A stretch of DNA of 64,000 nt from Alphaproteobacteria bacterium (GTDB lineage Bacteria > Pseudomonadota > Alphaproteobacteria > UBA8366): the NCBI GenBank assembly GCA_021774335.1, contig JAJFJD010000046.1:278109-342108 (forward strand), in the 5' to 3' direction. The position numbers were made by a program, and so were the translations under genes. Under the pieces are notes generated by a model. The model was not told where the DNA came from. It saw only the letters and a list, made by a program, of their open reading frames with translations, and made no database searches. Shown here piece after piece: positions 9,400 to 51,897 of the stretch. Positions within the stretch are counted from its first letter, which is position 1. The number at the start of each line of letters is the position of its first letter.

Positions 9400-9464
9400 A
9401 TACGAACGACCAAACTGGGCCGCTTCCGGAAAATCAATAAGAACCAACTGAAAAGCAGGACACC

Positions 9465-30490: not shown

Positions 30491-32560
30491 CTAGGCAGCC
30501 TTCACTTCCGAAATGAACTCGTCGACCGCCGACCGCAGCATCTCGGACTGCTGCGACAGCTCGCCGGCCGCGCCCAACACTTCCTGCGCGGCCGAGCCGG
30601 TCTCGGACGCGGCCTGGGTTACGCCGGTCACATTGCTGCTGACTTCCTGCGTGCCCATGGCGGCCTGCTGGGTGTTCTCCGCGATTTCACGCGTCGCGAC
30701 CCCTTGCTCGGAAACGGCATTGGCGATGGTGTCAGAAATCGCGTTGATTTCGGCGATCGTGGTCCCAATGCTCTCGATCGCGCCGACGGCCTCGCCGGTG
30801 ACCGATTGCATCCCGGATACTTGATCGGTGATCTCCTCGGTCGCCTTCGCCGTCTGAGTGGCCAGATTTTTGACCTCCGACGCCACGACGGCGAAGCCTT
30901 TGCCGGCCTCGCCTGCGCGCGCCGCTTCGATCGTGGCATTCAACGCCAGCAGATTGGTCTTTTCCGCAATCTCATTGATAAGACCGACCACCTCGCCGAT
31001 CTTCTGACCGGCATCGGCCAAGGTCCGCACCGTCTCGTTCGTGCGTTCCGCTTCGGAATTGGCCTTGGCGGCGATCTCCGCCGACTGTGACACTTGGCGA
31101 TTGATCTCGTTGATCGACGCCGACATCTCCTCGGACGCCGAGGCGACCGTCTGCACATTGGTCGTCGCCTGTTCGGAGGCCGCGGCGACCGCCGTGGCCT
31201 GCCGGCTCGTCTCTTCCGCGGTCGCCGACATCGATTCGGCGGTCGCGCGCATTTCCGTGGACGATGCCGACACTGTCTCGACGATACCGCCGACACGGTT
31301 CTGAAAATCGTCGGCAAGCGCATGCATGGCTTGGCGTTTCTCTTCTTCCGCCTTGCGTTGCTGCTCGATGCGGTCGGCCTCCATCTTCTTCATCTGCAGG
31401 GCATTGTCCTTGAAGACCTGCATCGCGGCCGCCATCGAACCGATTTCGTCTTTTCGGTCCCGCGCCGGGATACCGACCTCTAGTTCGCCATCGGCGAGCT
31501 TTTCCATCGCGCCAGTCATGGCGACGATCGGCCGCGACGTCGCCCGGCCGAGGAACCACGCCATGGCCAGACCGACGGCCAACCCCATTATGCTGACGAC
31601 CAGAATGACCAACTCGCTATTGAGAATGATCTCCTCGGTTTCGGCGCGGAGCCGCGCTTCCTCCTTCTCGGCAGCGTGCTGCATCCACTCGGCGTCCGCG
31701 ACGATGATCTTGGCCTTGGTCACGAGATCCGTCTCCAGCAGCTTCTGTAGCTTCAACTCGTCCTTGTGTACCGTCTCGTAGGTCTTTTTGTAGCCATTAA
31801 ACAACTCCACGACTTCGGCGAAGAGTGCCTTTTCCTTGTCCGTGTTCAAAATTCCTTTCAGCGCCTTCAGCGTCTTGTCGAAGATCACGAATTCCGCCTC
31901 GGTCTTCTCGGCGAAGCTCTCGTCGCGCTGGCCGATCAGGATGTTGGTGTAGAGCCGGATCAGCAGCGCGTGTTCGAGCGCGCTGTTCGCCAGCTTCACC
32001 GCCGGCGCGTTGCCCTCGCGCTCCGCTTCCTCGATCACCATTTCCAGATCCTTGACGATCTTCTCGCCATCCGGAAACAACCGGTCGCGCACCAGCGTAT
32101 CGTGTTCGATCTTGAGCAGTTTCGTCTCGCCAAAGAACGCCATATAACCGGCGAAAGCCTCGCCGATTTCCTCGACCTTGGCGCGGTGCGCCGGGTCCTT
32201 GATGACCTGAAGGCCTTGATCGATTTCCTTCTGAACCTCGACCGACAATTTCCCGACGGCTTCAGCGTCCGCGTTGGCGCCGGTAAATCCGTATTCCCGG
32301 GCATGGGCGCGCAGCTTGAGAAATCCAACTTCAATCTTCGCGGCAATCGTGGCTTCTTCGACGGCTTCAGCGAATTTCTCCACATCGACGCCGACATTCA
32401 CGAAACTGCGATACGCGTTGCCGGACACCAAGGAAAACAGCAACAGCACGGCAAGGAATCCGAGAAGGATCTTGGTCCCGATCTTCCAGCCGTTCAAAAG
32501 CCCGCCGATACCGTTAAGACTTCGCGGCATCCCAGATTTCAATTTTGCGCTCGTCGTCAT
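30491..32560 (-). CDS. Methyl-accepting chemotaxis protein
   Basis: Two TMs, HAMP, signalling tip [38 protein letters not shown]. Confidence 0.96.
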
Positions 32561-34145: not shown

Positions 34146-36212
34146 TTAGGCCGCCTTGACGTCGGTAATGAATTGTTCGACGACGCTCCGCAGCATATCC
34201 GATTGCTGCGACAACTCGCCGGAAGCCGCCAACACTTGCTGCGCCGCAGCACCGGTTTCCGATGCCGCCTGCGTGACGCCGGCGATGTTGCTGCTGACTT
34301 CCTGCGTGCCGGTCGCCGCCTGCTGGGTGTTTTCGGCGATCTCCCGTGTCGCGGCGCCTTGTTCACCAACCGCGGCGGAGATCGTTTCGGCGATCGCGTT
34401 GATCTCTGCAATGGTCTCGCCGATGCCTTTGATCGCGCCGACCGCATCGCCGGTCACCGACTGCATGCCGTTGACCTGCTCGCTGATCTCCTCGGTCGCC
34501 TTGGCCGTCTGGGTCGCCAGATTCTTGACCTCCGACGCCACGACGGCGAAGCCCTTGCCGGCCTCACCGGCGCGCGCCGCCTCGATCGTCGCATTCAGCG
34601 CCAACAGGTTCGTCTGTTCCGCGATTTCGCTAATCAATGCGACGACATCGCCGATTTTCTGTGCGGCGTCGGCCAACGACCGCACCGTTTCATTCGTACG
34701 CTCGGCCTCGGCATTCGCCTTGGTCGCAATCTCCGCCGATTGCGAGACTTGGCGGTTGATCTCGTTGATCGAGGCCGACATCTCCTCGGAGGCGGACGCC
34801 ACCGTCTGCACATTGGCGGTGGCCTGCTCAGACGCAGCGGCAACCGCCGTGGTCTGACTACTGGTCTGGTCGGCCGTCGCGGACATGGCCTCGGCGGTCG
34901 ACCGCATCTCGGCAGACGCTCCCGCGACCGTATTCACGATTTCCGTGGCCTGCGCATCGAAGGTCTCGGTGAGTTCGACCACAAGTTTCGCGCGTTTCTC
35001 GCGCTGTTCCTGGGCCTTACGCTCCTCTTCCTCGAGACGCTTCTGCTCGATTGCGCTGTCCTTGAAGACCTGCATGGCTTCCGCCATGTTCCCGACTTCA
35101 TCGGCGCGGTCCTGCGCCGGGATTTCGACATCGAGATCGCCGGCCGATAGGTCCTTCATCGCACCGGTCATGGCGACCACCGGCTTGGAGATCATGTTGC
35201 CCAGGCCCCAAGCCAGACCTATGCCTATGATGAGTCCCAGAGCACTGATTGCCGCGATGGATATCTCGCCGTTGACGATGATTTCCTCGGTCTCGGCGCG
35301 CAGCCGCGTCTCTTCCTTCTCGGCGGCATGCTGCAGCCATTCTGTGTCCGCGACGATGATCTTCGCGTTGCCGGCAAGGTCGGTGTCTAGCAGCTTTTGC
35401 AGCTTCAACTCGTCCTTGTGCACGATTTCATAAGTCTTTTCGTAGTCGTGGAACAGTTCCACCACTTCGGCGAACAGAACCCGTTCCTTCTCCGTATTCA
35501 GGGTGGCCTTCAACGCCTTCAGCGTCTTATCGAAGATCACGAATTCCGCCTCGGCCTTCTCGGCGAAGGCCTCGTCGCGCTGGCCGATCAGGATGTTGGT
35601 GTAGAGCCGGATCAGCAGCGCGTGTTCGAGCGCGCTGTTCGCCAACTTCATCGCCGGGGCGTTGCCCTCGTGCTCCGCTTCCTCGATGATCAATTCCAGG
35701 TCCTTGACGATCTTCTCGCCTTCCGGAAACAACCGGTCGCGCACCAGCGTATCGTGTTCGATCTTGATCGCCTTCATCGTCTTGAACTGGGCCATGAAGC
35801 TTGTTAAGGCCTTGCCGATTTCTTCGACCTTGGCCCGGTGTTTCGGGTCTTGGATCACCACAAGTCCGTGCTCGATATTCTTGGTGATCTTCACCGCGAG
35901 TTTTTTCACGGCGGCGGCATCGGAGTCGCGACCGGTATACCCATATTCCCGGGCATGCGCGCGAAGCTTCAGGAAATTCGCCTCGGTCTTCGCCGCGATC
36001 GAGGCCTCTTCGACCGCTTCGGAGAATTTCTCCACATCCGTGCCCACGGCTACGAAGCTGAAATACGCGTTACCGGCAACAAGGACGAGGATCGCCAGAA
36101 CGACCGCCACGCCGCTCATGATCTTGGACCTGATCTTCAGTTTATTGAAAATGCTGATGATGCCGAGCGGGCCGGAGCCCACCGTTTTACCGTTCGCAAC
36201 CATTGTTTTCAC
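34146..36212 (-). CDS. Methyl-accepting chemotaxis protein, close paralogue of 30491..32560
   Basis: Same architecture; [48 protein letters not shown]; near-identical sensor segment. Confidence 0.96.
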
Positions 36213-37463: not shown

Positions 37464-38255
37464 ATGAGCGACACCGCCAAGACCGCCCACAAGCCCAAGT
37501 CCCACTTTCACGCCCGCGTGTCGGCGGAGATGGAGCAGCATCTGGAGAAACCCGAATGGGGCCTCCGGGAGAAACTGGCGCTGACCGCGCGCATGCTCGC
37601 GCGCGACGGCCACGGATCCGGGCTTGCCGGGCAGATCACGGCGCGCGGCGACGATGCCGGCACCATGTGGACCGGCCGCTTCGGCCTCGGCCTCGAGGAA
37701 CTGCGCGCGTCCGACTTCATGCTGGTCGATGACGACCTCAACGTCCTGGACGGCGAGGGCATGCCCAATCCGGCCAACCGGTTCCATCTCTGGGTCTACA
37801 AGGCGCGGCCGGACGTACAGAGCATCGTGCATACGCATCCGCCGTATGTGTCGGCGCTGTCGATGATCGGCGTGCCGTTGATCGCCTCGCACATGGATAC
37901 GTCGATGTTCTATGACGACTGCGCCTGGCTCAGCGAATGGCCGGGACCGCCGATCGGCGACGACGAAGGCGAACTGATCGCCACCGCGCTCGGCGACAAA
38001 CGCTCGATCCTGCTGGCGCATCACGGCCAGTTGTCGGCGGGAGGGTCGGTCGAGGAGGCCGCGGTGCTCGCGTTTCATTTCGAGCGGGCGGCGCAGCTCC
38101 AGCTCCTGGCGATGGCGGCGGGCGAAATCGAGCCGCTCGACCCGCAGTGCGGCCGCGACGCCCACGACTACCGCCTGAAGCCTGCGGTGGTCGATGCCAC
38201 TTTCCTGTATCAGGCAAGGCTGGTTCTGCGGACCGAGGCCGACTGCCTGGACTAG
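37464..38255 (+). CDS. Class II aldolase/adducin family protein
   Basis: VHTHPPYVSALSMIG and LLAHHGQLSAGGSVEEA metal-binding motifs. Confidence 0.9.
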   Translation: MSDTAKTAHKPKSHFHARVSAEMEQHLEKPEWGLREKLALTARMLARDGHGSGLAGQITARGDDAGTMWTGRFGLGLEELRASDFMLVDDDLNVLDGEGMPNPANRFHLWVYKARPDVQSIVHTHPPYVSALSMIGVPLIASHMDTSMFYDDCAWLSEWPGPPIGDDEGELIATALGDKRSILLAHHGQLSAGGSVEEAAVLAFHFERAAQLQLLAMAAGEIEPLDPQCGRDAHDYRLKPAVVDATFLYQARLVLRTEADCLD

Positions 38256-38266
38256 CTATCTGCCGC

Positions 38267-39214
38267 TCAACCAAACCGCCGGGCCAGTGGTTTCAGCAGG
38301 TGCGGCGACAGGTAGATCGGAAACTGGCACATCGCGAAATAGAGCCACGCCATGTCCGGCAGCACGCCGCCGGTCGCCGCCAGCATCAGCCCCATATTGC
38401 GCTGCGACGCCATGAAGGCGAGCGCGAAGGCGCGGTCCCGGCCGGCCCACAGGAACGCCAAAAGCGTGACACCCAGCACCGCGAAGGTGATGACGAAGGC
38501 CAGCAAGCCGATGGCCGTCGCCAAGAGCGGCGCGGCGAGGAAGCTATCCGCCACACCGCCCATCACGGCGGCGACGAAGACGAACAGCACCAGCACGTTG
38601 AGGCCGTCGATCTCATTCTTGCGCCGGGCCACGGCGTCGCCCCCGGCAATTCGCCGGACGACCGCGGCGACCAATGCCGACCCGGCGAGGATGGCCAGCA
38701 GCTTGACCCCCAGCGCGATCGGCGACAGCGACAATGTTCCATCGAGAAACAGATAGGCGTAGAAGGTCGCGGTCAGCGGCGTCAGCGCCGTGCTCGCGAC
38801 CAGCGTGAGCAGAATGAGCGTCGCGTCGAAGCCCATCAGCGCAGCGAAGGCCGGGGCCGCCATCATCGGCGACGCGACCGCCTGCAGCATGATCGCCAGA
38901 TACAGGTCGGGGAACCGCCCTTCCAGGTCGAACGCCAAGCAGACGCCCACGAAGAGCAGCGGCATCACGACCATCGTCCAGCCCGTCGCCGCCAAAAGGA
39001 CACCGGGACGCCGCAAGGTGCCGCGCAATGCCGCCGCATCGACCCGCAGAAAGGCGATGCAGAGCAGCGCGAAGATCGCTTCGGCGACATACGGCTTGAG
39101 CACCGCGCCGACCGCCGGCACCGCGATGCCGATGAAAACCAGCACCGCAATCGCACCCGTCCCTTGCCGGCCGAGCCACGCCAACCCGGCCAGTGGCGAA
39201 TGAAGAACGGACAT
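38267..39214 (-). CDS. Bile acid:Na+ symporter (BASS)-like membrane transporter
   Basis: ~10 TM segments; ASPMMAAPAFAALMGFDATLILLTLVASTALTPLT and ALAFMASQRNMGLMLAA resemble the BASS/SBF family. Confidence 0.6.
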   Translation of the reverse strand: MSVLHSPLAGLAWLGRQGTGAIAVLVFIGIAVPAVGAVLKPYVAEAIFALLCIAFLRVDAAALRGTLRRPGVLLAATGWTMVVMPLLFVGVCLAFDLEGRFPDLYLAIMLQAVASPMMAAPAFAALMGFDATLILLTLVASTALTPLTATFYAYLFLDGTLSLSPIALGVKLLAILAGSALVAAVVRRIAGGDAVARRKNEIDGLNVLVLFVFVAAVMGGVADSFLAAPLLATAIGLLAFVITFAVLGVTLLAFLWAGRDRAFALAFMASQRNMGLMLAATGGVLPDMAWLYFAMCQFPIYLSPHLLKPLARRFG

Positions 39215-39308
39215 TGATCCGCCGTTCAGTGCGTTGTGGATGGGAAATTTTGTGCCGTCATCATACCGCGCGGCGGCACCGGCAAAAGAACCAGTTCGGC
39301 GGATACCG

Positions 39309-39662
39309 CTAGTCCATTACCTTTTGCAAGGTATGGCGCCGGTTGCTTGTATAGGGGCGGACCTGTTCGGGCCAACGGCCCTGCTCGATCGCGTCGGCCC
39401 ATTCCTTGCTGGTCAGCACATCGGGGCTTTCGATCTCATAGATCGCGCTGTAGGTCGGCTCGGCGCTGGTATCGACGGCTTTTTCCTCGCCGCCGATGCT
39501 GAGCTTCAGCGGCGCCTGCTTCAATCGCGTCACCGAGATGACACCCGGCACCTTCAGCAGCATCGGTACATGTTCTTCGTCGTAAACTTCGTTGAACAGG
39601 TCTTCCTTGTCCGCGTCCACATCCATGCTGGCGGTGAAGATATATCGCGCCGTGATCGGCAT
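39309..39662 (-). CDS. Small DUF4286/EthD-like dimeric alpha-beta barrel protein
   Basis: ASMDVDADKEDLFNEVYDEEHVPMLLKVPGVISVTRL pattern. Confidence 0.6.
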   Translation of the reverse strand: MPITARYIFTASMDVDADKEDLFNEVYDEEHVPMLLKVPGVISVTRLKQAPLKLSIGGEEKAVDTSAEPTYSAIYEIESPDVLTSKEWADAIEQGRWPEQVRPYTSNRRHTLQKVMD

Positions 39663-39707
39663 GCCGTTTCCTTCCTTATTGTCGATGCCTGACGTGGCCG
39701 AACGCGC

Positions 39708-40583
39708 TTAATCGCGAATCCAACCCGGCCCCCACAGGTTGAGGCTGCGTTCCTCGAGCGGCCAGACCCTCGGGGCCATTTCGCGCGGCATGATTTCCAG
39801 TTCGGCGGAAATCTCCACTTGATTGCCGTGCGGATCCTGGATCATGAAGAACAGATTGTTGCCCGGCCCGTGCCGGCCCGGCCCCCACCACAACTTGATA
39901 TGCCGGGAAGACATGTGATCAGCCCAATCGCGGATATCGTTCCAGGACGATGCCTCATAGGCATGATGATCCGAGCCGACCTCCGATGCGCTGAACACCG
40001 CGAAGCTGTGATGTTCCGGATCGGAACGGTAGAAGGCGACCTTGCGCGTCGCGGGGTCGTCGACATCGGCGCTGCAATAGTCGGAGGGCACGTAGCCGAG
40101 CACGTCCTCGTAGAACGACATCATGCGCGCAAGATTGTCGGTCGCCACGACGACATGCTGCAACCGCCCGGACAGTTTGACCGCCGACGGCGTGTTGACC
40201 GCCTTGTGCGACGGCAGGTCCCGGCGCGGCATGCCGAAAACATTGAGCCAGCCATCCGGATCGCGCACCGCCACCGCGTCCCCTTCGAAGATCGCCGAAG
40301 GCGACGGTTCGGTGTTGACGCCCTGCCCCTGCACGAAATCGCGGATATCCTGAAGCTGCTGGCGATCCTGTACGCAGAACCCGTGATACGGCCGCTCGCC
40401 CGGTTTGCCAGGGCCGACCACCAACCGCCGGTCGGGTCCTTGCAGCAGGACGGTTCCGTCCGGCATCGGCGACGCCTGATAGCCAAAAGTATCGGCGTAG
40501 AAATCCGCCAGCATGGCCGGATCATCGGAATTCAGCCGCAGATGATCCAGTTTGGAGGGCCAGATCGGGGACTCGATGCTCAT
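39708..40583 (-). CDS. VOC superfamily, extradiol (catechol 2,3-dioxygenase-like) dioxygenase
   Basis: Two VOC modules; second carries LQHVVVATDN, DHHAYEASSW, NQVEISAELE consistent with a 2-His-1-Glu metal site. Confidence 0.82.
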   Translation of the reverse strand: MSIESPIWPSKLDHLRLNSDDPAMLADFYADTFGYQASPMPDGTVLLQGPDRRLVVGPGKPGERPYHGFCVQDRQQLQDIRDFVQGQGVNTEPSPSAIFEGDAVAVRDPDGWLNVFGMPRRDLPSHKAVNTPSAVKLSGRLQHVVVATDNLARMMSFYEDVLGYVPSDYCSADVDDPATRKVAFYRSDPEHHSFAVFSASEVGSDHHAYEASSWNDIRDWADHMSSRHIKLWWGPGRHGPGNNLFFMIQDPHGNQVEISAELEIMPREMAPRVWPLEERSLNLWGPGWIRD

Positions 40584-40743
40584 GGATTCGCTCGCTCTGA
40601 GAAAGGCCGGCATATTCTATGCGTTTCGCGGCAGACCGCAACGCCCAGTGCGGCGTTTTAACCGCCGAGACCGTATTGTCGGGCGGTCCTCCCGATCGCT
40701 ATAATCCCCTATAAATAAAGACGATAGCGGGAAGGAAACGACC

Positions 40744-42111
40744 ATGGTCGGCAATGGCCCTCGCCGGTATACCGGCGACCTGGTCAACATCGATGCCGGA
40801 CGGATCAGCCGGGATATCTTCACCGATCAGGCCATCTACGAGGACGAGTTGGAGCGAGTTTTTCCGCGCTCCTGGATGTTCATCGGCCATGAGAGCCAGA
40901 TCCCCGAGCAGGGCGATTTCATCCTCAGCCGCATGGCCGAAGAATCGGTGATCTTCAACCGCGACCGCCACGGCAAGCTGCATGTGTTCCTGAACAACTG
41001 CCGCCACCGCGGCATGCGCGTCTGCCGATACGACACCGGCAACACCCGCAAGTTCATGTGCCCTTTCCACGCGTGGGTGTTTTCCGACGAGGGCGAGCTG
41101 GTCGGCGTGCCGAAGATGGAGACCGGCTACCACAACGAACTCGACAAATCGGAGTGGGGCCTGATCGAGGCGCGCGTCGCCAGTTACCACGGTTACGTCT
41201 TCGCCTGCTGGGACGAGGAAACCCCCGACTTCGAGACTTATCTCGGCGATCTGCGCTTTTATTTCGACGACTATTGCGAACTGCCCGACGGCACGCATGG
41301 CGACTGGGAAGCGTTCGGCGGCGTGTTCAAATGGCGGGTGCCGTGCAATTGGAAATACGGCGCGGAAAATTTCGGCGGCGACTATTACCACAACCCGAGC
41401 CACGCCTCGGTCGACGCCGTCGTGTTGTCGCCCGCCGGCGTGAAGGGCCGCCACACCTACGACGCGGTCACCAAGACGCGTGAACTCTATAAGCTCAACG
41501 TCTGCGTGACGCCCGAAGGCCACACCGCGCGCGGCGAATTGTTCAAGGACGACTACGAGTATCTGCCGACCTATCAGGAAATGGCGGTCGTCGAGGACTA
41601 CTTCCGCGATTGCTACAAGCGGCGCCAGTCCCGTCTCGGCGAGAAAGCGCGCTGGTACGGGCACGGCGGCACGATTTTTCCCAACGTCTCCTACTCCAAC
41701 GGCGTGCAGAGCATGGGCACCTGGAACCCGTGCGGCCCGCACGAAACCGAAATCTGGCGCATCTTCCTGGCACCAAAGGCGGCGCCCGACGAGGTCAAGA
41801 ACGTGCTGCGCCACTACGTCATCCGCTACCAGGGGCCGTCGGGTCTGACCGAACAGGACGACATGGAGAATTGGGCCTCGGCACATGAAGGCGCCCGCGG
41901 CACGATCGCACGACGCCATGATTTCCACTACGGCATGGGCATGGGCTACGAGCGCAAAGGCTGGCCGGTCGAATGGCTCGGCGGCGACGTCTACGCGACC
42001 GAGGATGTATCGGAACAGAACCAGCGCGCCTACTACGCCCGCTGGGCCGAGGTCATGGACGACCCGCCGACCGCAAACCGCCGGCCGAAACCGGCCGAAG
42101 CGGCGGAGTAG
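40744..42111 (+). CDS. Aromatic ring-hydroxylating dioxygenase, alpha subunit (Rieske)
   Basis: Rieske motif CRHRGMRVCRYDTGNTRKFMCPFHAW; non-haem Fe motif NWKYGAENFGGDYYHNPSHAS. Confidence 0.94.
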   Translation: MVGNGPRRYTGDLVNIDAGRISRDIFTDQAIYEDELERVFPRSWMFIGHESQIPEQGDFILSRMAEESVIFNRDRHGKLHVFLNNCRHRGMRVCRYDTGNTRKFMCPFHAWVFSDEGELVGVPKMETGYHNELDKSEWGLIEARVASYHGYVFACWDEETPDFETYLGDLRFYFDDYCELPDGTHGDWEAFGGVFKWRVPCNWKYGAENFGGDYYHNPSHASVDAVVLSPAGVKGRHTYDAVTKTRELYKLNVCVTPEGHTARGELFKDDYEYLPTYQEMAVVEDYFRDCYKRRQSRLGEKARWYGHGGTIFPNVSYSNGVQSMGTWNPCGPHETEIWRIFLAPKAAPDEVKNVLRHYVIRYQGPSGLTEQDDMENWASAHEGARGTIARRHDFHYGMGMGYERKGWPVEWLGGDVYATEDVSEQNQRAYYARWAEVMDDPPTANRRPKPAEAAE

Positions 42112-42120
42112 GAAACGGTC

Positions 42121-42657
42121 ATGGTCGGATCGCCGAAGAACGCCCTGATCGACGAACTGTTGGTGCGCTATCGCGTCGAACAATTCTATATCCAGGAAGC
42201 CGAACTGCTGGACACGCGGCAGTTCGAAGCATGGCTCGATCTGCTGGCCGACGATATCCGCTACTGGATGCCGGTCATGCGCAACAAGGGCCATGGCGAG
42301 TGGGACGACGAATACACCCGCGAGGGGACCGACCTGAATTGGTTCGACGAAGGCAAGTTCGAACTGGAACAGCGGGTCAAGCAGATCGCCACCGGCCTGC
42401 ACTGGGCGGAGGAGCCTATCTCGCGGACCTGCCACATGTTCTCGAACCTGCAGGTCACAGACGACAGCGACGATGAGTTGACCGCCCGGTGTCGCTTCAT
42501 CGTGTACCGTAACCGCACCGAGACCGAGACCGATTTCTTCGTCGGCAAACGCCAGGATACGCTGCGCGAAACCGACGATGGCTTCGTCGTCGCGGCACGC
42601 GAAATTTATCTGGACCAAAGCGTGTTGCTGGCGAAAAACCTGACCGTGTTCTTTTGA
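42121..42657 (+). CDS. Aromatic ring-hydroxylating dioxygenase, beta subunit
   Basis: EQFYIQEAELLDTRQFEAWLDLLADDIRYWMPV; RQDTLRETDDGFVVAAREIYLDQSVLLAKNLTVFF. Confidence 0.93.
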   Translation: MVGSPKNALIDELLVRYRVEQFYIQEAELLDTRQFEAWLDLLADDIRYWMPVMRNKGHGEWDDEYTREGTDLNWFDEGKFELEQRVKQIATGLHWAEEPISRTCHMFSNLQVTDDSDDELTARCRFIVYRNRTETETDFFVGKRQDTLRETDDGFVVAAREIYLDQSVLLAKNLTVFF

Positions 42658-42692
42658 TCCACCGAGCTTGAACCGCAGGACGGAGGCGCATC

Positions 42693-43481
42693 ATGGCCGA
42701 CCCCAAAACCGTCATCGTATCCGGCGGCACTTATGGCATCGGCCGCGGCATCGTGCTCGATCTCGCACGGCGCGGATGGAATGTCGTGGGCTTCGGGTTG
42801 GACGGCAAACAAGCCGGCAGCGCCGCCGACAACGGCATCGACGGAACGCGCGCGGCGCTGGCCGCCGAAAGCCTCAAGGCCGACGTGATCGAAGCCGATG
42901 TCGCGGAGGCCGGCGCGGTGGCCGGGGTGGTAGAACATGCGCTGTCACTGCACGGCCGCATCGACGGCGCGGTCAACAACGCGGCGCTGCGGCCGAGCGG
43001 CACGATCCTGGAAACCGACGAAGCCACCTTCGACCGCGTCGTCGCGGTGAACCTGAAAGGGCAATTCCTGCTGTGCAAGGCCGTGATCCCGCATATGCGC
43101 GATGCCGGAGGCGGATCGATCGTGAATATCGGTTCCGGCGCGGGCTGGGGTAAACCCGGGATCGCCGCCTACTGCGCCAGCAAGGGTGGCGTCTTCGCGT
43201 TCAGCACCGCGCTCGCCTATGACCACCTGCAGGATCGCGTGCGCGTCAACGTGGTGGTACCGGGGCCACAAACCGCATCCGGCATGGTCGAGGCGATGGC
43301 GAGCAGCGGCAGCAGCAGTGGGTCGCAACCGGTCACGGCGAGCGGCCGGCAAACGCAGCCGCAGGATATCGCCAACGCCGTCGCGTTCTTGTTGTCGGAC
43401 GAAGCGGCCCAAATTTCAGGGACCGTCGTCGACGTCGGCGCCTTCGCGCATCAAGGCGGCGTCGGCCAGCCACGCGTGTAA
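42693..43481 (+). CDS. Short-chain dehydrogenase/reductase
   Basis: VIVSGGTYGIGRGIVLDLARRG; VNNAALRP; YCASKGGV; VNVVVPGP. Confidence 0.9.
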   Translation: MADPKTVIVSGGTYGIGRGIVLDLARRGWNVVGFGLDGKQAGSAADNGIDGTRAALAAESLKADVIEADVAEAGAVAGVVEHALSLHGRIDGAVNNAALRPSGTILETDEATFDRVVAVNLKGQFLLCKAVIPHMRDAGGGSIVNIGSGAGWGKPGIAAYCASKGGVFAFSTALAYDHLQDRVRVNVVVPGPQTASGMVEAMASSGSSSGSQPVTASGRQTQPQDIANAVAFLLSDEAAQISGTVVDVGAFAHQGGVGQPRV

Positions 43482-43596: not shown

Positions 43597-44643
43597 ATGA
43601 AACCGAAATTAACGTCGAAATTCGGCGTGGGTATCGCGGCGACCATGGCAGCAGTCATGCTGAGCGCTGGTGTCGCCCAGGCCAAATCCGATCTGCTCGT
43701 CTACACGGCGGTGGAAGCGGACGAACTGAAGAAATTCAAGAAAGCGTTCGAGTCCGACTACCCCGATGTGAACATTAAGTGGGTGCGCGACTCCACGGGC
43801 ATCATCACGTCGAAGTTGCTCGCGGAAAAGGACAACCCGAAAGCGGACATCGTCTGGGGCGTCGCCGCGACGAGCCTGTTGCTGCTCAGCAAACACAACT
43901 ATTTCCAAGGCTATGCGCCGAAGGGCGTCGACAAGCTCGACCAAAAATATGTCGATACCAAGAACAACCCACCCCTTTGGGTCGGTCAACGGGCCTGGAT
44001 CGCCTCGATCTGCTACAACACGGTCGAAGGCAAGAAGCACAAGCTGCCCGTGCCCAACACTTGGGACGACCTGACAAAGCCCGTCTACAAGGGCCACGTG
44101 ATCATGCCGAACCCGAACTCGTCGGGCACCGGCTTTCTGGACGTGTCGTCCTGGATCCAGTTGAAGGGCGAGAAGAAAGCGTGGGGTTACATGGACGCGC
44201 TGCACACCAACATCGCGCGCTACACGCATTCCGGCTCCAAGCCGTGCAAGCTCGCCGCCAAGGGTGAAATCCCCATCGGCGTTTCCTTCGCCTATCGCGG
44301 CGCCAAATCCAAGAACCAGGGCGCGCCGCTCGAGGTCGTGGCCCCGGCAGAAGGCGTCGGCTGGGACCTGGAAGCCTTCGGTATCGTGCACAACACAAAG
44401 AACCTGAAAGCCGCAAAGGCGTTGGCCGACTGGTCGGTGACCAAGAAGGCGAACAAGATCTACAACGAGGAATACGCCGTGGTCGCCATGCCGGGCGTTG
44501 CCAAGCCGGTGAAGAATTTCCCGCCGGGCATCGAAGGCAAGATGATCAAGAACGACTTCCAGTGGGCGGCCGCCAACCGGATCCGCATCCTAGACGAATG
44601 GCGTAAGCGCTACGACGGCAAGTCCGAACCGAAGAAGAAGTAG
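43597..44643 (+). CDS. aepX: 2-aminoethylphosphonate-type ABC transporter substrate-binding protein (AepX/PhnS2-like)
   Basis: Signal peptide; LLVYTAVEADELKKFKKAFESDYPDVNIKWVRDSTGIITSKLLAEKDNPKADIVWGVAATSLLLL; C-terminal RILDEWRKRYDGKSEPK resembles the PhnS2 family from memory. Confidence 0.8.
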   Translation: MKPKLTSKFGVGIAATMAAVMLSAGVAQAKSDLLVYTAVEADELKKFKKAFESDYPDVNIKWVRDSTGIITSKLLAEKDNPKADIVWGVAATSLLLLSKHNYFQGYAPKGVDKLDQKYVDTKNNPPLWVGQRAWIASICYNTVEGKKHKLPVPNTWDDLTKPVYKGHVIMPNPNSSGTGFLDVSSWIQLKGEKKAWGYMDALHTNIARYTHSGSKPCKLAAKGEIPIGVSFAYRGAKSKNQGAPLEVVAPAEGVGWDLEAFGIVHNTKNLKAAKALADWSVTKKANKIYNEEYAVVAMPGVAKPVKNFPPGIEGKMIKNDFQWAAANRIRILDEWRKRYDGKSEPKKK

Positions 44644-44666
44644 GACTGGCGTTTCGACAAGATTTG

Positions 44667-44705
44667 GCCGCCCCGGTTTCCGCATGGAGCCGGGGCGGCT
44701 TCTTT
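44667..44705 (+). terminator. Intra-operon rho-independent terminator/attenuator after the binding-protein gene
   Basis: Perfect 10-bp arms GCCGCCCCGG ... CCGGGGCGGC followed by TTCTTT. Confidence 0.78.
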
Positions 44706-44756
44706 AGGCCGATGCTATCGTGTTTCTGATACGATAGTGCTGGGAGGATCGGGCGC

Positions 44757-45857
44757 ATGGACGGCTCAGGCGGCGGCGCGTATCTGCGTATTCGGCATCT
44801 GACGAAGAAATTCGGCGACTTCGTCGCCCTGCAGGATGTCTCCCTCGAAGTCCACGAAGGCGAATTCGTCTGCTTCCTCGGGCCATCGGGCTGCGGCAAG
44901 ACCACGCTGCTGCGGGCGATCGCAGGGCTCGACATCCAAACCTCCGGCACCATCCATCAAGCCGGGGTCGATATCTCCTCCCTGCCGCCCGGCGAACGCG
45001 ACTTCGGGATCGTCTTCCAATCCTACGCCTTGTTCCCGAACCTCACGGTGACGCGCAACATCGCCTACGGCCTGGAAAACAAGAAAAAGTCCCGTGCGGA
45101 GATCGATGAACGTGTCTCTGAACTGATCGACCTCGTCGGGCTCGACGAGCATCGCGACAAATACCCGGCGCAGCTCTCGGGTGGACAACAACAGCGTGTC
45201 GCCCTGGCACGGGCGCTCGCCACGTCGCCGGGTCTCCTGCTGCTGGACGAACCACTGTCGGCGCTGGATGCGAAAGTTCGCGTGCATTTGCGTCACGAGA
45301 TCAAGCAACTGCAGGACAAGATCGGCGTCACCACGATCATGGTGACGCATGACCAGGAAGAAGCCCTGGCAATGGCCGACCGAATCGTCGTGATGAACCA
45401 AGGCTTCATCGAACAGATCAGCACCCCGACCGACGTCTACGCCAAGCCTGTATCGCCTTTCGTCGCGGACTTTATCGGCACCACAAATTTCATCGACGGC
45501 GTGATGACCGCCGACGGCCGAATCTCGGTCGCCGGCGTCACGATCGACGCGAGCGACGACAGCAGCGCCTTTGCCGCCGGCGATAAGGTCACGATCTGCG
45601 TCCGGCCCGAGGACGTGCAGGTAACCGAATCGGCCGACGGCCAAAACGGCAGCTTCGAGGTCACCGTCTCCGACATCGAGTTCCTGGGATCGTTCTATCG
45701 CTGCCATGTCATACCGAAGGGCGGGAACGGAAGCGGCTTCAAGGCGGATCTTTCGGCGAACCACGCGCGCAATTTGCGTCTCGAGGAAGGGCGGATGTTG
45801 TACGCCCTGTTGCCGGCGGAATTCGTGCGCGTCTATGCGTCGGGCGAGACCGAGTAA
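44757..45857 (+). CDS. aepV: ABC transporter ATP-binding protein (AepV/PhnT2-like)
   Basis: Walker A GPSGCGKTTLLRAIAG, LSGGQQQRVALARAL, Walker B LLLLDEPLSALD, C-terminal TOBE-like domain. Confidence 0.85.
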   Translation: MDGSGGGAYLRIRHLTKKFGDFVALQDVSLEVHEGEFVCFLGPSGCGKTTLLRAIAGLDIQTSGTIHQAGVDISSLPPGERDFGIVFQSYALFPNLTVTRNIAYGLENKKKSRAEIDERVSELIDLVGLDEHRDKYPAQLSGGQQQRVALARALATSPGLLLLDEPLSALDAKVRVHLRHEIKQLQDKIGVTTIMVTHDQEEALAMADRIVVMNQGFIEQISTPTDVYAKPVSPFVADFIGTTNFIDGVMTADGRISVAGVTIDASDDSSAFAAGDKVTICVRPEDVQVTESADGQNGSFEVTVSDIEFLGSFYRCHVIPKGGNGSGFKADLSANHARNLRLEEGRMLYALLPAEFVRVYASGETE

Positions 45858-45864
45858 CCGCGGC

Positions 45865-47550
45865 ATGACCGACATCGCCGCCATCAAGCCGAAAGTCAGC
45901 AGCGAAGATTGGATCATGCGCGCAGTTCTGGTCGGGATCGCGCTCTATCTGTTCGTCTCGATCCTGCTACCGCTCTACACGATCCTGTCCAAGAGCTTCA
46001 AAGACGCCGATGGAGCGTTCATCGGTCTGTCGAACTACGCCAATTTCTTTTCGACGCCTTCCTTGTTCTGGTCGATCCAAAACAGCCTGACGGTGACACT
46101 GCTCTGCTGTTTCATCGTCGTGCCGGTCGCCTTCACCTACGCCTATGCCCTGACCCGCACCTGCATGCCGTTTAAAAGCATCTTCAAGGGCGTGGCGCTG
46201 ATCCCGATCCTGATGCCCTCTTTGCTGCCAGCGATCGCACTCGTCTATTTCTTTGGCAATCAGGGGATTATCAAGTCCTGGCTTTTCGGCTACGACATCT
46301 ACGGCCCGATTGGGATTGTGATGGGTGAGTGTTTCTACGTCTTCCCGCATGTCCTGACGATCATGCTGATCGCGATGGCGAATTCCGACGCCAGGCTCTA
46401 CGAGGCCTCGAATGCGCTCGGCGCCAGTAGGATCAAGACCTTCTTCACGGTCACGCTGCCGAGCGTCCGCTACGGCGTCGTGTCCGCCTTCTTCGTCTGT
46501 TTCACGCTGGTGATTACCGATTTCGGCGTGCCGAAGGTCGTCGGCGGCAAGTACAACGTGCTGGCCACCGACATCTATAAACAGGTCGTCGGCCGGCAGG
46601 ACTTCGAAATGGGTGCCGTGGTCAGCATGATCCTGTTGCTGCCCGCCGTGTTGGCTTTCGTCGCAGACCGGATGGTCCAGCGTAAGCAGGTCGCGCTGTT
46701 GTCAGCCCGGGCGGTCCCGTTCCAGCCCAAGCCGAGCCGCACGGGCGATATGGCGATGCTCACCTTCTGCGCCGCGATCGGTTTCATCCTCATATCGGTC
46801 TTGGCGATGGCGGCCTTCGCCTCCTTCGCCAAGTTCTGGCCCTATGACCTGTCGCTGGTCCTGAACCACTACGATTTCGACCTGATGGACGGCGGAAGCT
46901 GGGACGCCTATTTCAACTCCATCGAGTTGGCAGCCTGGACGGCGGTGATCGGCACCGCACTGGTCTTCACCGGCGCCTATCTGGTGGAGAAGAGCAACGG
47001 GTTTCTGGCCGGTCGCGCGGGCATGCAACTCCTCTGCATGGTGCCAATGGCCGTGCCGGGGCTGGTGCTGGGTCTTGCCTATGTCTTCTTCTTCAACGCG
47101 CCGGGTAATCCGCTCGGCTTCCTATATCACACGATGCCGATCCTGGTGATCTGCACGGTGACGCATTTCTACACCGTCTCGCACATGACCGCGATCACCG
47201 CGCTGAAGCAGATGGACGCCGAGTTCGAAAGCGTATCCGCCTCGCTCAAGGTGCCGTTCTACCGCACCTTCATCCGCATCACGGTGCCGGTCTGCCTGCC
47301 CGCGATTCTGGATATCTCGATGTATCTGTTCGTCAATGCGATGACGACGGTGTCGGCGGTCGTGTTCCTGTACTCACCGGACACGGCGCTCGCCTCGGTC
47401 GCGATCCTGAACATGGACGATGCCGGCGACGTCGCCCCGGCAGCGGCAATGGGCATGATGATTGTCGCGACGGCGGCGGCGGTGCGGTTGCTGCACGCGA
47501 TCCTGACCCGCGGCATCCTCGCCCGCACGCAGGCGTGGCGACGGCGCTAG
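45865..47550 (+). CDS. aepW: Fused two-domain ABC transporter permease (AepW/PhnU2-like)
   Basis: About 561 aa, ~12 TM, two permease halves each with an EAA-like loop (YEASNALGASRIKTFFTVTLPSV; FESVSASLKVPFYRTFIRITVPV). Confidence 0.85.
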   Translation: MTDIAAIKPKVSSEDWIMRAVLVGIALYLFVSILLPLYTILSKSFKDADGAFIGLSNYANFFSTPSLFWSIQNSLTVTLLCCFIVVPVAFTYAYALTRTCMPFKSIFKGVALIPILMPSLLPAIALVYFFGNQGIIKSWLFGYDIYGPIGIVMGECFYVFPHVLTIMLIAMANSDARLYEASNALGASRIKTFFTVTLPSVRYGVVSAFFVCFTLVITDFGVPKVVGGKYNVLATDIYKQVVGRQDFEMGAVVSMILLLPAVLAFVADRMVQRKQVALLSARAVPFQPKPSRTGDMAMLTFCAAIGFILISVLAMAAFASFAKFWPYDLSLVLNHYDFDLMDGGSWDAYFNSIELAAWTAVIGTALVFTGAYLVEKSNGFLAGRAGMQLLCMVPMAVPGLVLGLAYVFFFNAPGNPLGFLYHTMPILVICTVTHFYTVSHMTAITALKQMDAEFESVSASLKVPFYRTFIRITVPVCLPAILDISMYLFVNAMTTVSAVVFLYSPDTALASVAILNMDDAGDVAPAAAMGMMIVATAAAVRLLHAILTRGILARTQAWRRR

Positions 47551-47564
47551 GACACGCCGGCCGT

Positions 47565-49451
47565 CTATTTGCGGAGTTGCGGCAAGATGGCGACCGCGGC
47601 CACGCCAAGCGCGATCGGACCCGTCACCGGCGTCGGCGCCAGCAGGGCGATACCCGCACCCGCAGCGAGAACGCGACTCCATGCCGGCATCGTTCGCTTG
47701 AGATATCCCTCGACCGCAATCGACAACAGCACAAGACCGGTCGCAGCACTGATGCAGATCAGTATGATCGGTCCGGTCTCGCCGATCAGCAGAATCTCGT
47801 TCGCGTAGACAAAGGCGAAGGGCAGGATGAAGGCGCCGAGCGAGAGCCGGACGGCAGTGACGGCAATCTTCATCGGATTATCCAGGGCGATGGCCGACGC
47901 CGCATAGGCCGCGACCGCCACCGGCGGCGTCATCGCCGACAGCACCGCGAAATAGAGCAGGAACATATGGCCTGCCATCATGTTGACCTTCAGGTCTTCC
48001 ACCAGCAGCGGCCCGACTAGGACCGCCGCCAGGATGTAGGCGCTCGGCGTCGGCATGCCGAGGCCGAGCACGATGGTGAGTGCTGCCGCGATGACTAAGG
48101 AGAAAAAGAGATCGGCATCCGCGATGAAAAAGATCAGATGCGAGAACTTCGCGGCGAGCCCGGTCATCGTGATGCCGCCGATCACCAATCCCGCGGCCGC
48201 GCAGGCACCGGTCACCGGCACCATGCGCATCGCCGTTTCCGCCAGCGCTTCATAGATCGCGCGCGGCCCCATCCGCGTATCGGCGCGGAACAAGGACACC
48301 AGCACGATCGTGACCGCGCCGAAGGCCGCGACATAGGTCGGCGAATAACCTTCGATGAGGGCCACGACAATGACGATGAGAGGCACCAGGAACAGGCCGC
48401 CGCGTTTCATCGTGTCCCTGAGTTTCGGGATGTCCGACTCCGCAAGCGGCGCCAATCCCATCTTGAGCGATCGCAAATGCACCTGGGTATAGATGCAGAG
48501 GTAGTAAAGCGCTGCCGGCACCAAGCCCGCGATGACGATATCCAAATAATCCAGGTCGGTGAAATCCGCCATGATGAAGGCGGCGGAGCCCATCACCGGC
48601 GGCAGGATGCTGCCGCCGGTCGACGCCGCGACTTCCACGCCGCCCGCCAACCTGCCGGAATAACCGAGCCGTTTCATGATCGGAATGGTGACCGCGCCCG
48701 TCGTCACCACGTCGGATGTCGGGCTGCCGGAAATCGTGCCGTATAGTCCGGACGATACGACGGCGATTTTGGCCGGCCCTCCCGGTGACCGGCCGCTGAT
48801 CGCCGCCGACAGATCGAAAAAGAAATCGCTGCCGCCAGCGCGCGACAGGAAGGTCCCGAACAGCACGAACAGAAACACATAGGTTCCCGCCACCCGTAGC
48901 GGCACGCCGAAAATGCCGTCCGTGGTGAAGACCATAATGTCGATGAAATGCTCGTAGGTGATCAGGCCGTGATTGAGCGGCCCTTCAAACCAGTCGCCAA
49001 ACAGGTTATAGGCGATGAACAGTCCGACCAGCAGCGTCAGCCCCAATCCCACCGTGCGCCGCGTCGCTTCCAACGTCAGCACCCAGACAATGGTCGCGAA
49101 CACCATGTCCCATAGGCTCAGCGGGTCGAGCAGGGTGATCCGGCCCGCGATATCACCGGCATTCACCGCGAAGTAGACACCGGCAACGCCGCTGGCCAGC
49201 GCCATCACGATGTCATAGGCCGGCGGCGCGCGATCCTCATCGACCGCCGTCGCGTTGACCGTCAGGAACACCAACACCAGCATCAGCGTCAGGAAGATGA
49301 TGGTCAAAGCCAGCGCGTCGATCAAAGCGACCGTCGCGGCATAGAGCACCCACACGGTCACGCAGGCCGCATAGGCGGCAATGACGGCCTTCAGCCACCC
49401 GGTCGGTTGCCGGCGTCCTCCGGTCGAAAACGCCACCGTCAGCAATTTCAT
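47565..49451 (-). CDS. TRAP transporter permease, 4TM/12TM (DctQM) fusion protein
   Basis: GSPTSDVVTTGAVTIPIMKRLGYSGRLAGGVEVAASTGGSILPPVMGSAAFIMAD typical of TAXI-associated TRAP fusions. Confidence 0.92.
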   Translation of the reverse strand: MKLLTVAFSTGGRRQPTGWLKAVIAAYAACVTVWVLYAATVALIDALALTIIFLTLMLVLVFLTVNATAVDEDRAPPAYDIVMALASGVAGVYFAVNAGDIAGRITLLDPLSLWDMVFATIVWVLTLEATRRTVGLGLTLLVGLFIAYNLFGDWFEGPLNHGLITYEHFIDIMVFTTDGIFGVPLRVAGTYVFLFVLFGTFLSRAGGSDFFFDLSAAISGRSPGGPAKIAVVSSGLYGTISGSPTSDVVTTGAVTIPIMKRLGYSGRLAGGVEVAASTGGSILPPVMGSAAFIMADFTDLDYLDIVIAGLVPAALYYLCIYTQVHLRSLKMGLAPLAESDIPKLRDTMKRGGLFLVPLIVIVVALIEGYSPTYVAAFGAVTIVLVSLFRADTRMGPRAIYEALAETAMRMVPVTGACAAAGLVIGGITMTGLAAKFSHLIFFIADADLFFSLVIAAALTIVLGLGMPTPSAYILAAVLVGPLLVEDLKVNMMAGHMFLLYFAVLSAMTPPVAVAAYAASAIALDNPMKIAVTAVRLSLGAFILPFAFVYANEILLIGETGPIILICISAATGLVLLSIAVEGYLKRTMPAWSRVLAAGAGIALLAPTPVTGPIALGVAAVAILPQLRK

Positions 49452-49530
49452 CGCACGTAGCCCCGATAGGGTCTCGGCGCCACCGAGGCCGCCGAGATTT
49501 TCAGTTCCGACTAACCCGCGCTCTAAAGGG

Positions 49531-50517
49531 CTATTGGAGGCCAGCCGCCTTGTACGCCTCTGCGGCGCCGGCATGGTAGGGAGTCGACTTGGAACTGGCC
49601 ATCAACTTGGTGTCCAGTTTCTTCATCGCCTTGTGAACGCCCGACAGCTTCTTGGAGTTATCGATCAACGCCTTGGTGAGGTTGAAGGCGTCCTTTTTCG
49701 GCATCGTGTCCAGCGTCACGAGCTGGGCGGACAACGCCACGGTCTTCACGTCGTTGGGCGCCCATTTGTAGGACCCGCCCTTGACCGTGAACCGGCCGAT
49801 CTGCAACTTCTTCGAGACTTTTTCGATCGTTGCATCGGAGACGTTCAGCAGTTTCAACGGCACCGCCTCGCCCGGTTGGCGGATCGAACGATGGCGCACG
49901 AAGATGCCGTTCCCGAAGGAATCGATACGGCGGTCCTTGATCAGGTTGCTCATTTCCTTGGATGCGGCGAACACGACCTGTCCGCCCCAGCCCTCGATAT
50001 CCTTGTAGGAGGCGCCCGCCGCCTTGAACATCTCCTCAATCACCTGCGAGACGACATTGCCGCGCTTGTTCACCGCGATCCGGACCGGCGCCTTTTTCTT
50101 GACGATGTCCTCGATGGAATTGATGCCGTGCTTGTCGGCGAATTCCTTGGTCATCACGAATTGCATCGGCGCCCAATTGTAAAGTACCGCCACGGCGCGC
50201 AGATCATTCGCAGCCTGCTTGAAGGGGCGCTTTCCTTCGAGGGCGAGTTTCGCTTCCACATCATGGACGATAGCGAGTTGGCACTTCTTCGCGCGCAGCA
50301 GCCCAACGTTGGCGAAGCCGCCGCCGGATGTCTGGTAGGTTATGGTCGAGCCCGGATACGCGGCCTTCATTGCGGAATCGACACCGGCACCCAGCAGCGA
50401 CCACAGGCCGCCCGGACTAGCACCGCACAGCGTCAACGTATAATCCTTGGCCTTCGCCGGGGCGCTGATCGCCGCCGCCAGCGCAGCAATCGCCATGAAT
50501 GAGAACAATTTTCTCAT
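49531..50517 (-). CDS. TAXI family TRAP transporter solute-binding subunit
   Basis: Signal peptide MRKLFSFMAIAALAAAISAPAKA then YTLTLCGASPGGLWSLLGAGVDSAMKAAYPGSTITYQTSGGGFANVGLL. Confidence 0.92.
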   Translation of the reverse strand: MRKLFSFMAIAALAAAISAPAKAKDYTLTLCGASPGGLWSLLGAGVDSAMKAAYPGSTITYQTSGGGFANVGLLRAKKCQLAIVHDVEAKLALEGKRPFKQAANDLRAVAVLYNWAPMQFVMTKEFADKHGINSIEDIVKKKAPVRIAVNKRGNVVSQVIEEMFKAAGASYKDIEGWGGQVVFAASKEMSNLIKDRRIDSFGNGIFVRHRSIRQPGEAVPLKLLNVSDATIEKVSKKLQIGRFTVKGGSYKWAPNDVKTVALSAQLVTLDTMPKKDAFNLTKALIDNSKKLSGVHKAMKKLDTKLMASSKSTPYHAGAAEAYKAAGLQ

Positions 50518-50658: not shown

Positions 50659-51897
50659 TTGGGACCTAGGCTGAGCGATAACAAGAACACGGACAGCATG
50701 AGGGAACGCAGACGCATGCAACGATCTAGGCTCCCCGCCGGCGGCGCGAATGTCTTTCAGAAAATACGGCAGAAGCGAACCGACGCCCTGGCGCAAGGGT
50801 TGTCGCTGCTCGACCTGTCGATCGGCGAACCGAAGGGTGCGGCGCTGCTCAGCGCGCGGCAGGCCGCCCAAGCCGCGGTGATGAGCGAGGACGAGGCGAT
50901 GCACGCCTACCAATACAACGAAAGCCCGGCGGTGCCCGATTTCTCCCGCCGGTTCGTCACCGCTCACCTTCGCCGCGACCTGTCGGATGCCGCGGTCGAC
51001 TACGTGCCTATCCCGGGCATCAAACCGATCCTCGGCCTGTTGCCGCTGGCCTGCGGCTGCGCGCAGCAGCCGGTGACCGTCGCCACGACGACCAAACCCG
51101 GCTATCCAATCCCCGCGAATTGGTGCGATTACCACGTACATGCGACGCATTACGCCCTGCCGCTGAGTTCGGAGAACGGCTTCCGGTTCTCGACGGCGGA
51201 CATCCAGCCCGGCACCGACCTGATCATGGTCAACTACCCACACAACCCATCCGGCCAGGTCGCTTCCGTGGACTGGCTGCGCGACCTGTGCCAGCACTGC
51301 AGTGATCACGACATCCGGCTATTCAACGATGCGGCCTATTTCGCGCTCAGCCACGACAACGACAGCGCCACCTTGGCGGAGATCGCCATAGACTTTCCCG
51401 ACCTCTCGTGGTGCGAGGCCTATACCGCCGCGAAACTGATCGGCAACGGCACCGGATGGCATGTCGGCGCCATGATCGGATCGCCGGATTTCATCGCGGA
51501 CGTGAAAGAGGTCAAAGGCAAGACCGACGCCGGCTTCGTCGCCCCCATGGCGGCCGGCGTGATCACCGCACTTGAGACCGACCAAGTGAACATCGACGCC
51601 ATGCGCGAGACCTACCGGTCCCGGCTGACACTGCTGATGGACCTGATGAAGGATTGCGGCATGCGGTTGGCGATCGAGCCCAAGGCGGGTTTCTACACCC
51701 TGTGGGAAACCCCGACGCACGCCTTCGGCAAACCAATGCCGGATGCGGAGGCATTCAACTTCGCGATGATTGAAACCGTCGGCGTGGTCGGCGTTCATTT
51801 CCCAGGTTACGTGCGCTACGCGGTTTGCGCCGACGTCGCCGCAATGGCCGATGATCTCCGCGCCGCCTTCGCAAAGGCCAAGGTGACTTACGGCTAG
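50659..51897 (+). CDS. Class I/II PLP-dependent aminotransferase (start uncertain)
   Basis: LDLSIGEP, VNYPHNPSGQV, FNDAAYFALS, TAAKLIGNGTGWHVGAMIG, PGYVRYAVCAD. Confidence 0.88.
   Translation: MGPRLSDNKNTDSMRERRRMQRSRLPAGGANVFQKIRQKRTDALAQGLSLLDLSIGEPKGAALLSARQAAQAAVMSEDEAMHAYQYNESPAVPDFSRRFVTAHLRRDLSDAAVDYVPIPGIKPILGLLPLACGCAQQPVTVATTTKPGYPIPANWCDYHVHATHYALPLSSENGFRFSTADIQPGTDLIMVNYPHNPSGQVASVDWLRDLCQHCSDHDIRLFNDAAYFALSHDNDSATLAEIAIDFPDLSWCEAYTAAKLIGNGTGWHVGAMIGSPDFIADVKEVKGKTDAGFVAPMAAGVITALETDQVNIDAMRETYRSRLTLLMDLMKDCGMRLAIEPKAGFYTLWETPTHAFGKPMPDAEAFNFAMIETVGVVGVHFPGYVRYAVCADVAAMADDLRAAFAKAKVTYG

Follow-up and report, generated by a model that had tools for sequence, protein, structure and literature searches.

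The closest described counterparts of the gene set reported here are the hca (3-phenylpropionate/cinnamate) and bph (biphenyl) operons, in which an alpha-beta Rieske oxygenase, a short-chain dehydrogenase/reductase (SDR), and, in bph, a VOC-family enzyme are encoded in one cluster. Sphingomonad multi-oxygenase systems comprise several oxygenase pairs without local reductases, together with one Rieske-ferredoxin/GR-type reductase set encoded elsewhere (PMC4048848, PMC2358900), and expansions of ring-hydroxylating dioxygenases have been described in SAR202 Chloroflexi (PMC6946804, PMC6123686). Here we examined a 64,000-nucleotide stretch (the window, in which all coordinates without a locus or genome prefix are given) of contig JAJFJD010000046.1 from an alphaproteobacterium of the GTDB lineage UBA8366 (source genome G000; other L and G numbers denote the loci and genomes compared). 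Its core consists of genes for a Rieske oxygenase alpha subunit (40744 to 42111, + strand, 455 amino acids), a beta subunit (42121 to 42657, + strand, 178 amino acids), and an SDR (42693 to 43481, + strand), divergent from a gene for a two-domain VOC protein (39708 to 40583, − strand). On balance, we favor the reading that this module encodes the upper steps of an aromatic-ring degradation pathway, fed by an unlinked electron donor and including an aminotransferase.

The alpha subunit is 37 to 38% identical to BphA1 and HcaE. Unlike hca and bph, however, the window has no local ferredoxin, reductase, or regulator, draws its SDR and VOC proteins from other subfamilies, adds an aminotransferase, and carries H-x3-H in place of H-x4/5-H. 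The likeness to sphingomonads lies in oxygenases without local reductases, but only three such oxygenases were found in G000, and the sharing of partners is here a proposal. The SAR202 enzymes include relatives with the same H-x3-H motif, whereas they mostly have other partners and belong to large paralogue sets, and no window-type VOC orthologue was seen there. VOC proteins of Aminobacter pBAM2, Caballeronia, and Phaeobacter plasmids are 38 to 40% identical to that of the window, share its metal triad, and likewise have an active-site Tyr replaced, but they adjoin fumarylacetoacetate hydrolase (FAH)-family genes and other hydroxylases.

The oxygenase and its conserved partners

Gene calling with Pfam and NCBIfam searches found six genes with intact frames, in agreement with a preliminary description made from the sequence alone, which had placed alpha, beta, and SDR on the + strand opposite the VOC gene, a small protein gene, and a BASS-like gene on the − strand. 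Pfam upheld the family labels of the first four. The alpha subunit matched Rieske and Ring_hydroxyl_A and, as had been noted, retains both metal sites: an Fe-S motif C-x-H-x17-C-x2-H and a non-heme-iron motif D213-x2-H216-x3-H220, with EQDD. Since the published definition (C-x-H-xn-C-x2-H and D-x2-H-x3,4-H-xn-D; PMC5209329) permits x3 or x4, H-x3-H is a variant within the family, and we rejected the spacing as a novelty. The beta subunit (Ring_hydroxyl_B, 137 bits; 43% identity to BphA2) starts after a 9-bp gap 3′ of alpha. With these motifs throughout the window clade and beta adjoining alpha, the pair has the defining features of an alpha-beta Rieske ring-hydroxylating oxygenase.

In a tree with HcaE, BphA1, NdoB, and BenA, alpha fell in a 30-row clade, H-x3-H in all members, placed beside the Hca/Bph/Nah oxygenases, with long branches that leave the exact root unsure. 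This clade held no characterized member among the references used, and alpha did not match the 3-phenylpropionate dioxygenase equivalog NF042946 for HcaE (351 bits against a cut-off of 830). When solved structures were searched with a 46-residue motif, none of the oxygenase alignments displayed was to an H-x3-H enzyme. The closest non-orthologous relatives, at 47 to 50% identity, include SAR202/Dehalococcoidia oxygenases. A 41% oxygenase of the clade also lies on contig L113, which is titled a Klebsiella pneumoniae metagenome-assembled genome (MAG) and possibly reflects a binning or labeling error.

Across 84,980 species genomes scanned, alpha orthologues at 75 to 95% identity occurred in about 20 loci of alphaproteobacterial MAGs, many of them marine, and beta followed alpha in all. 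Below 75% there is a gap, the next relatives (SAR202/Dehalococcoidia, Rokubacteria, other Proteobacteria) lying at about 50%. In 11 loci (L036 to L039, L041, L042, L044, L046, L047, L055, and L115), a divergent VOC gene either adjoins the oxygenase or lies no more than about 3 kb away. Among the order's 44 genomes, alpha was initially detected in 14 and VOC in 15; the fifteenth genome, G016, carries an alpha gene whose N terminus is cut at a contig end (L152:1-327). Oxygenase and VOC are thus present in the same 15 genomes and both absent from the other 29 (Fisher p = 1.3e-10 before the G016 fragment was added; the genomes are nonindependent, so Fisher p values are indicative only). Arrangements vary through intervening genes, different SDRs, and separate contigs while membership persists. 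These comparisons support alpha, beta, and VOC as one conserved unit, usually adjacent, in 15 of 15 genomes; the scattering in relatives that the preliminary description had named as a refuting outcome was mostly not seen.

The SDR (adh_short_C2, 154 bits) is a recurrent neighbor. The window type accompanies alpha-beta in L036, L037, L043, and L048 to L050, and alpha-beta-SDR linkage was found in four separate lineages: the window clade; L160 (SDR at 55% identity); Variovorax L139, with the SDR between alpha and beta (54%); and L072, L080, L085, L103, and L104, with an SDR at about 40% after beta. Because the linkage extends to distant relatives, the core appears to be one functional unit. In the L048 to L050 lineage, a different, Tyr-bearing VOC extradiol-type gene and a class II aldolase gene lie upstream of alpha-beta-SDR (L048:8315-9870, L049:3907-5471, L050:4396-5948), and this VOC gene replaces the window-type divergent one.

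Between the VOC gene and alpha lies a divergent promoter-like pair (40614 to 40705, both strands), with TTGCGG-16-TAGAAT facing VOC (40641 to 40614, − strand) and TTGTCG-18-TATAAT facing alpha (40676 to 40705, + strand). Across nine orthologous intergenic regions, the alpha-ward site (TTGYCN-17/18-TATAAT-like) was found in all and the VOC-ward site (TTGCNN-16-TAGAAT/TAAAAT) in eight, L115 being without a match. Few shuffled sequences (200 per region) scored as well in most loci, with weaker results for the alpha-ward site in L041, L042, and L115 and for the VOC-ward site in L036. Transcription probably proceeds from two back-to-back sigma-70-type promoters. The longest VOC open reading frame starts at 40613; because orthologues begin at 40583 and the −10 element (40614 to 40619) lies just upstream, 40583 is probably the true start.

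Candidate electron supply and a linked aminotransferase

A Cys-motif scan of 36 to 52 kb recovered the alpha Rieske site as the sole credible iron-sulfur motif; no ferredoxin, reductase, or transcription factor was recognized among the genes there, as the preliminary description had held for the vicinity. We therefore rejected a hidden small ferredoxin near the cluster. A protein of about 62 amino acids beside relatives' oxygenases was likewise rejected as a ferredoxin, being Cys-free. Its gene is conserved in the vicinity of the oxygenase in relatives from SAR202, Rokubacteria, and Variovorax (L139:9789-9983; also L060, L061, L065, L067, L069, L075, L082, L088, and L100), and none was seen in the window clade.

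The single Reductase_C protein of the genome (G000:C52:90842-92059), of GR type, is encoded directly after a Rieske ferredoxin in an operon on another contig (G000:C52:90434-92063); the ferredoxin is 48% identical to BphA3 and the reductase 38% to BphA4. An oxygenase, a [2Fe-2S] ferredoxin, and a GR-type reductase make up a type IV ring-hydroxylating oxygenase system (PMC2358900), and this pair is probably the best electron-donor candidate, in line with the earlier expectation of a donor from elsewhere. Near the two remaining oxygenases of the genome (L119, L120), no reductase could be recognized, and a BphA3/A4-type pair was found beside none of about 80 alpha relatives in the flanks fetched. 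Shared, unlinked partners are established in sphingomonads and actinobacteria (PMC4048848, PMC2358900), so finding no electron-transfer genes close by is nothing exceptional.

The gene set reaches past 38267 to 43481, the extent first assigned to it, since a pyridoxal phosphate-dependent class I/II aminotransferase gene (50716 to 51897, + strand; Aminotran_1_2), absent from the preliminary description, belongs to it by genomic linkage. The aminotransferase directly follows beta or SDR in seven loci (L037 to L040, L042, L046, and L055) and is present in at least 11 of the order's 15 oxygenase genomes (p = 5e-7). It also occurs in G040, where, as in G039, it is instead paired with an SDR of the window type. 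The aminotransferase is linked to the gene set and not strictly bound to it. This linkage hints at a nitrogen-bearing substrate, and the RidA-family, amino-acid-ABC, and DAO genes near some loci are suggestive of the same.

Two genomes showed further arrangements. The G040 aminotransferase-SDR pair (L150:5365-12367; L149) lies near metallo-beta-lactamase, two TauD, PEP-mutase-like, and HpaI-aldolase genes, and close copies of its metallo-beta-lactamase, TauD, and HpaI genes are also present in G039. In G322, of another order, the aminotransferase lies about 7 kb from an orphan 61% beta with Sel1, PrpD, and Fic neighbors, opposite and beside a different, divergent Rieske-like oxygenase gene (L159:3452-3991 and 9429-11998). 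Neither the fetched G322 stretch nor a whole-genome search yielded a close alpha orthologue.

Proposed pathway and alternatives

From the genes, motifs, conservation, linkage, co-occurrence, and promoter-like sites compared above, we infer each catalyzed step, the order of steps, the electron donor, and the role of the aminotransferase as follows. Dioxygenation of an aromatic ring by the alpha-beta oxygenase would yield a cis-dihydrodiol, in which the SDR would restore aromaticity, leaving a catechol as the substrate for ring opening by the divergently encoded VOC enzyme. The C52 ferredoxin and reductase probably feed the oxygenase and may also serve the other two oxygenases of the genome. The aminotransferase would act in the same pathway, most simply by taking the amino group from an aromatic amino acid or from a nitrogen-bearing intermediate.

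Several observations weigh against this scheme. An NdoR-like second reductase is encoded at G000:C12, and the C52-type reductase is widespread, occurring in 31 of the order's 44 genomes, and three MAGs with the oxygenase yielded no match to it; a cluster-specific ferredoxin reductase is accordingly rejected. The aminotransferase also occurs where no close alpha orthologue does (G040, G229, and G322). Of the order's 15 oxygenase genomes, only 3 were found to have the window SDR, and some loci carry another, such as a 30% SDR after the aminotransferase in L039, L040, L046, and L055. The window SDR did not match the HcaB/BphB-type cis-dihydrodiol dehydrogenase group, with 23 to 26% identity to the HcaB/BphB/Nah dehydrogenases and generic SDR scores; it may share their function despite this low identity. 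The window cluster showed no recognizable gene for a ring-cleavage-product hydrolase or an FAH-family protein. The last point concerns the VOC protein: at the active-site position aligned with BphC Tyr250 and HPCD Tyr257, all 12 orthologues have Met in place of Tyr, the second-shell His (counterpart of HPCD H200) being kept. In calculations on HPCD, extradiol selectivity depends above all on Tyr257 (PMC6308299).

HPCD Y257F structures with bound 4-nitrocatechol exist, so loss of the Tyr alone may not abolish function. The replacement nevertheless weakens a plain extradiol assignment, and ring cleavage by the VOC protein is only probable. A rather unlikely alternative is that this protein is another Fe- or Mn-dependent VOC enzyme (an isomerase, a lyase, or an enzyme of non-catechol ring cleavage) and that the module modifies the ring without classic meta-cleavage. 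Beyond the Met in all orthologues, and Phe in the pBAM2 and Phaeobacter relatives, this would fit the protein's 22% identity to BphC and its scores far under the cut-offs of the NCBIfam extradiol equivalogs (HpaD, 90 against 321). However, the His-His-Glu triad (H153, H216, and E267), described earlier as intact, is invariant in 14 homologues, as are the acid-base His and Arg. Two Glyoxalase stretches (Pfam) and this triad give the two-domain VOC fold with the 2-His-1-Glu set of type I extradiol dioxygenases, and the best fold matches of a predicted model (pLDDT 73) are the extradiol dioxygenases BphC, HsaC, C23O, and HPCD. A grouping with non-oxygenase VOC families lacking the metal triad, the other refuting outcome named at the outset, was mostly not borne out. 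The FAH-family and aromatic hydroxylase genes adjoining the 38 to 40% relatives also argue against this alternative.

The oxygenase could instead be a monooxygenase, a demethylase, or a deaminating or decarboxylating dioxygenase with no need of a diol dehydrogenase, the SDR acting elsewhere, for example, in supplying the aminotransferase with a ketone made by oxidizing an alcohol. The loss or replacement of the SDR in many orthologous loci and its position beside the aminotransferase, away from the oxygenase, in G039 and G040 are consistent with this. We consider it unlikely, given the recurrence of alpha-beta-SDR in distant lineages and the placement of alpha beside the dihydroxylating Hca/Bph/Nah enzymes; on the dihydroxylating reading, a diol dehydrogenase would be needed. 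That the co-occurrence reflects only shared ancestry with joint gain and loss of neighbors, the aminotransferase and transporters being passengers, is quite improbable: the sample is clustered in two families and some genomes have the aminotransferase by itself, but the association persists within the two carrier families (14 of 14 against 1 of 9 for VOC, p = 1.8e-5), and arrangements differ while membership is kept.

Within the preferred reading of an upper aromatic catabolic pathway, a bolder version is doubtful, namely, a previously undescribed marine pathway for aromatic amino acids or amino-aromatics that combines a Rieske dioxygenase from an as yet uncharacterized H-x3-H clade, a dedicated aminotransferase, and a Tyr-less VOC enzyme with altered cleavage chemistry.

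Neighboring genes and wider meaning

The two remaining genes of the six carry weaker labels. The BASS/SBF-like membrane protein (38267 to 39214, − strand) scored 21.5 bits for SBF, under the 24.3 cut-off. The small DUF4286-like protein (39309 to 39662, − strand, 117 amino acids) is 57 to 59% identical to annotated DUF4286 proteins, with a profile match at E = 0.026; its low-confidence model resembles ABM/EthD/LsrG folds, and it is perhaps of the dimeric alpha/beta-barrel type. Among the loci fetched, copies of both (88% and 89%, respectively) recur only in the sister locus L036. The preliminary inference of a single pathway therefore held for the alpha, beta, and VOC unit with its recurrent SDR neighbor but not for these two genes as general members.

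A class II aldolase/adducin-family gene (37464 to 38255, + strand; NF005484 "aldolase," 385 bits against a cut-off of 261), omitted earlier, is a possible pathway member. It was not found in L036, and the class II aldolases near the oxygenase in L048 to L050 and Variovorax are only distantly similar (27 to 32%). Downstream lie a phnS2-type ABC importer (43606 to 47550, + strand; TIGR03261, 498.7 bits), comprising a binding protein to 44643, an ATPase at 44757 to 45857, and a permease to 47550, and a TRAP-TAXI transporter (47565 to 50463, − strand; TIGR02123, 589 bits), comprising a fused permease at 47565 to 49574 and a TAXI/NMT1_3 binding protein at 49531 to 50463. Association with the importer is conserved in L036 only, and the TRAP-TAXI permease also stands beside alpha-beta-SDR in L043. 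A Pfam survey of 75 further neighbor proteins revealed no recurrent extra enzymes beyond scattered TauD proteins. Two similar methyl-accepting chemotaxis proteins are encoded upstream (30491 to 32560 and 34146 to 36212); in L036, such genes, apparently frame-split, lie between the BASS-like and DUF4286-like genes.

Taken together, the module is of an ordinary aromatic catabolic kind, real and conserved, with parts of known kinds and an unusual link to an aminotransferase. For uncultivated marine Alphaproteobacteria, the comparison defines a conserved unit (alpha, beta, VOC, and mostly the aminotransferase, with an SDR) and names a candidate electron donor for it. Because the alpha clade reaches SAR202 and Rokubacteria, one substrate assignment would aid the reading of many marine genomes.

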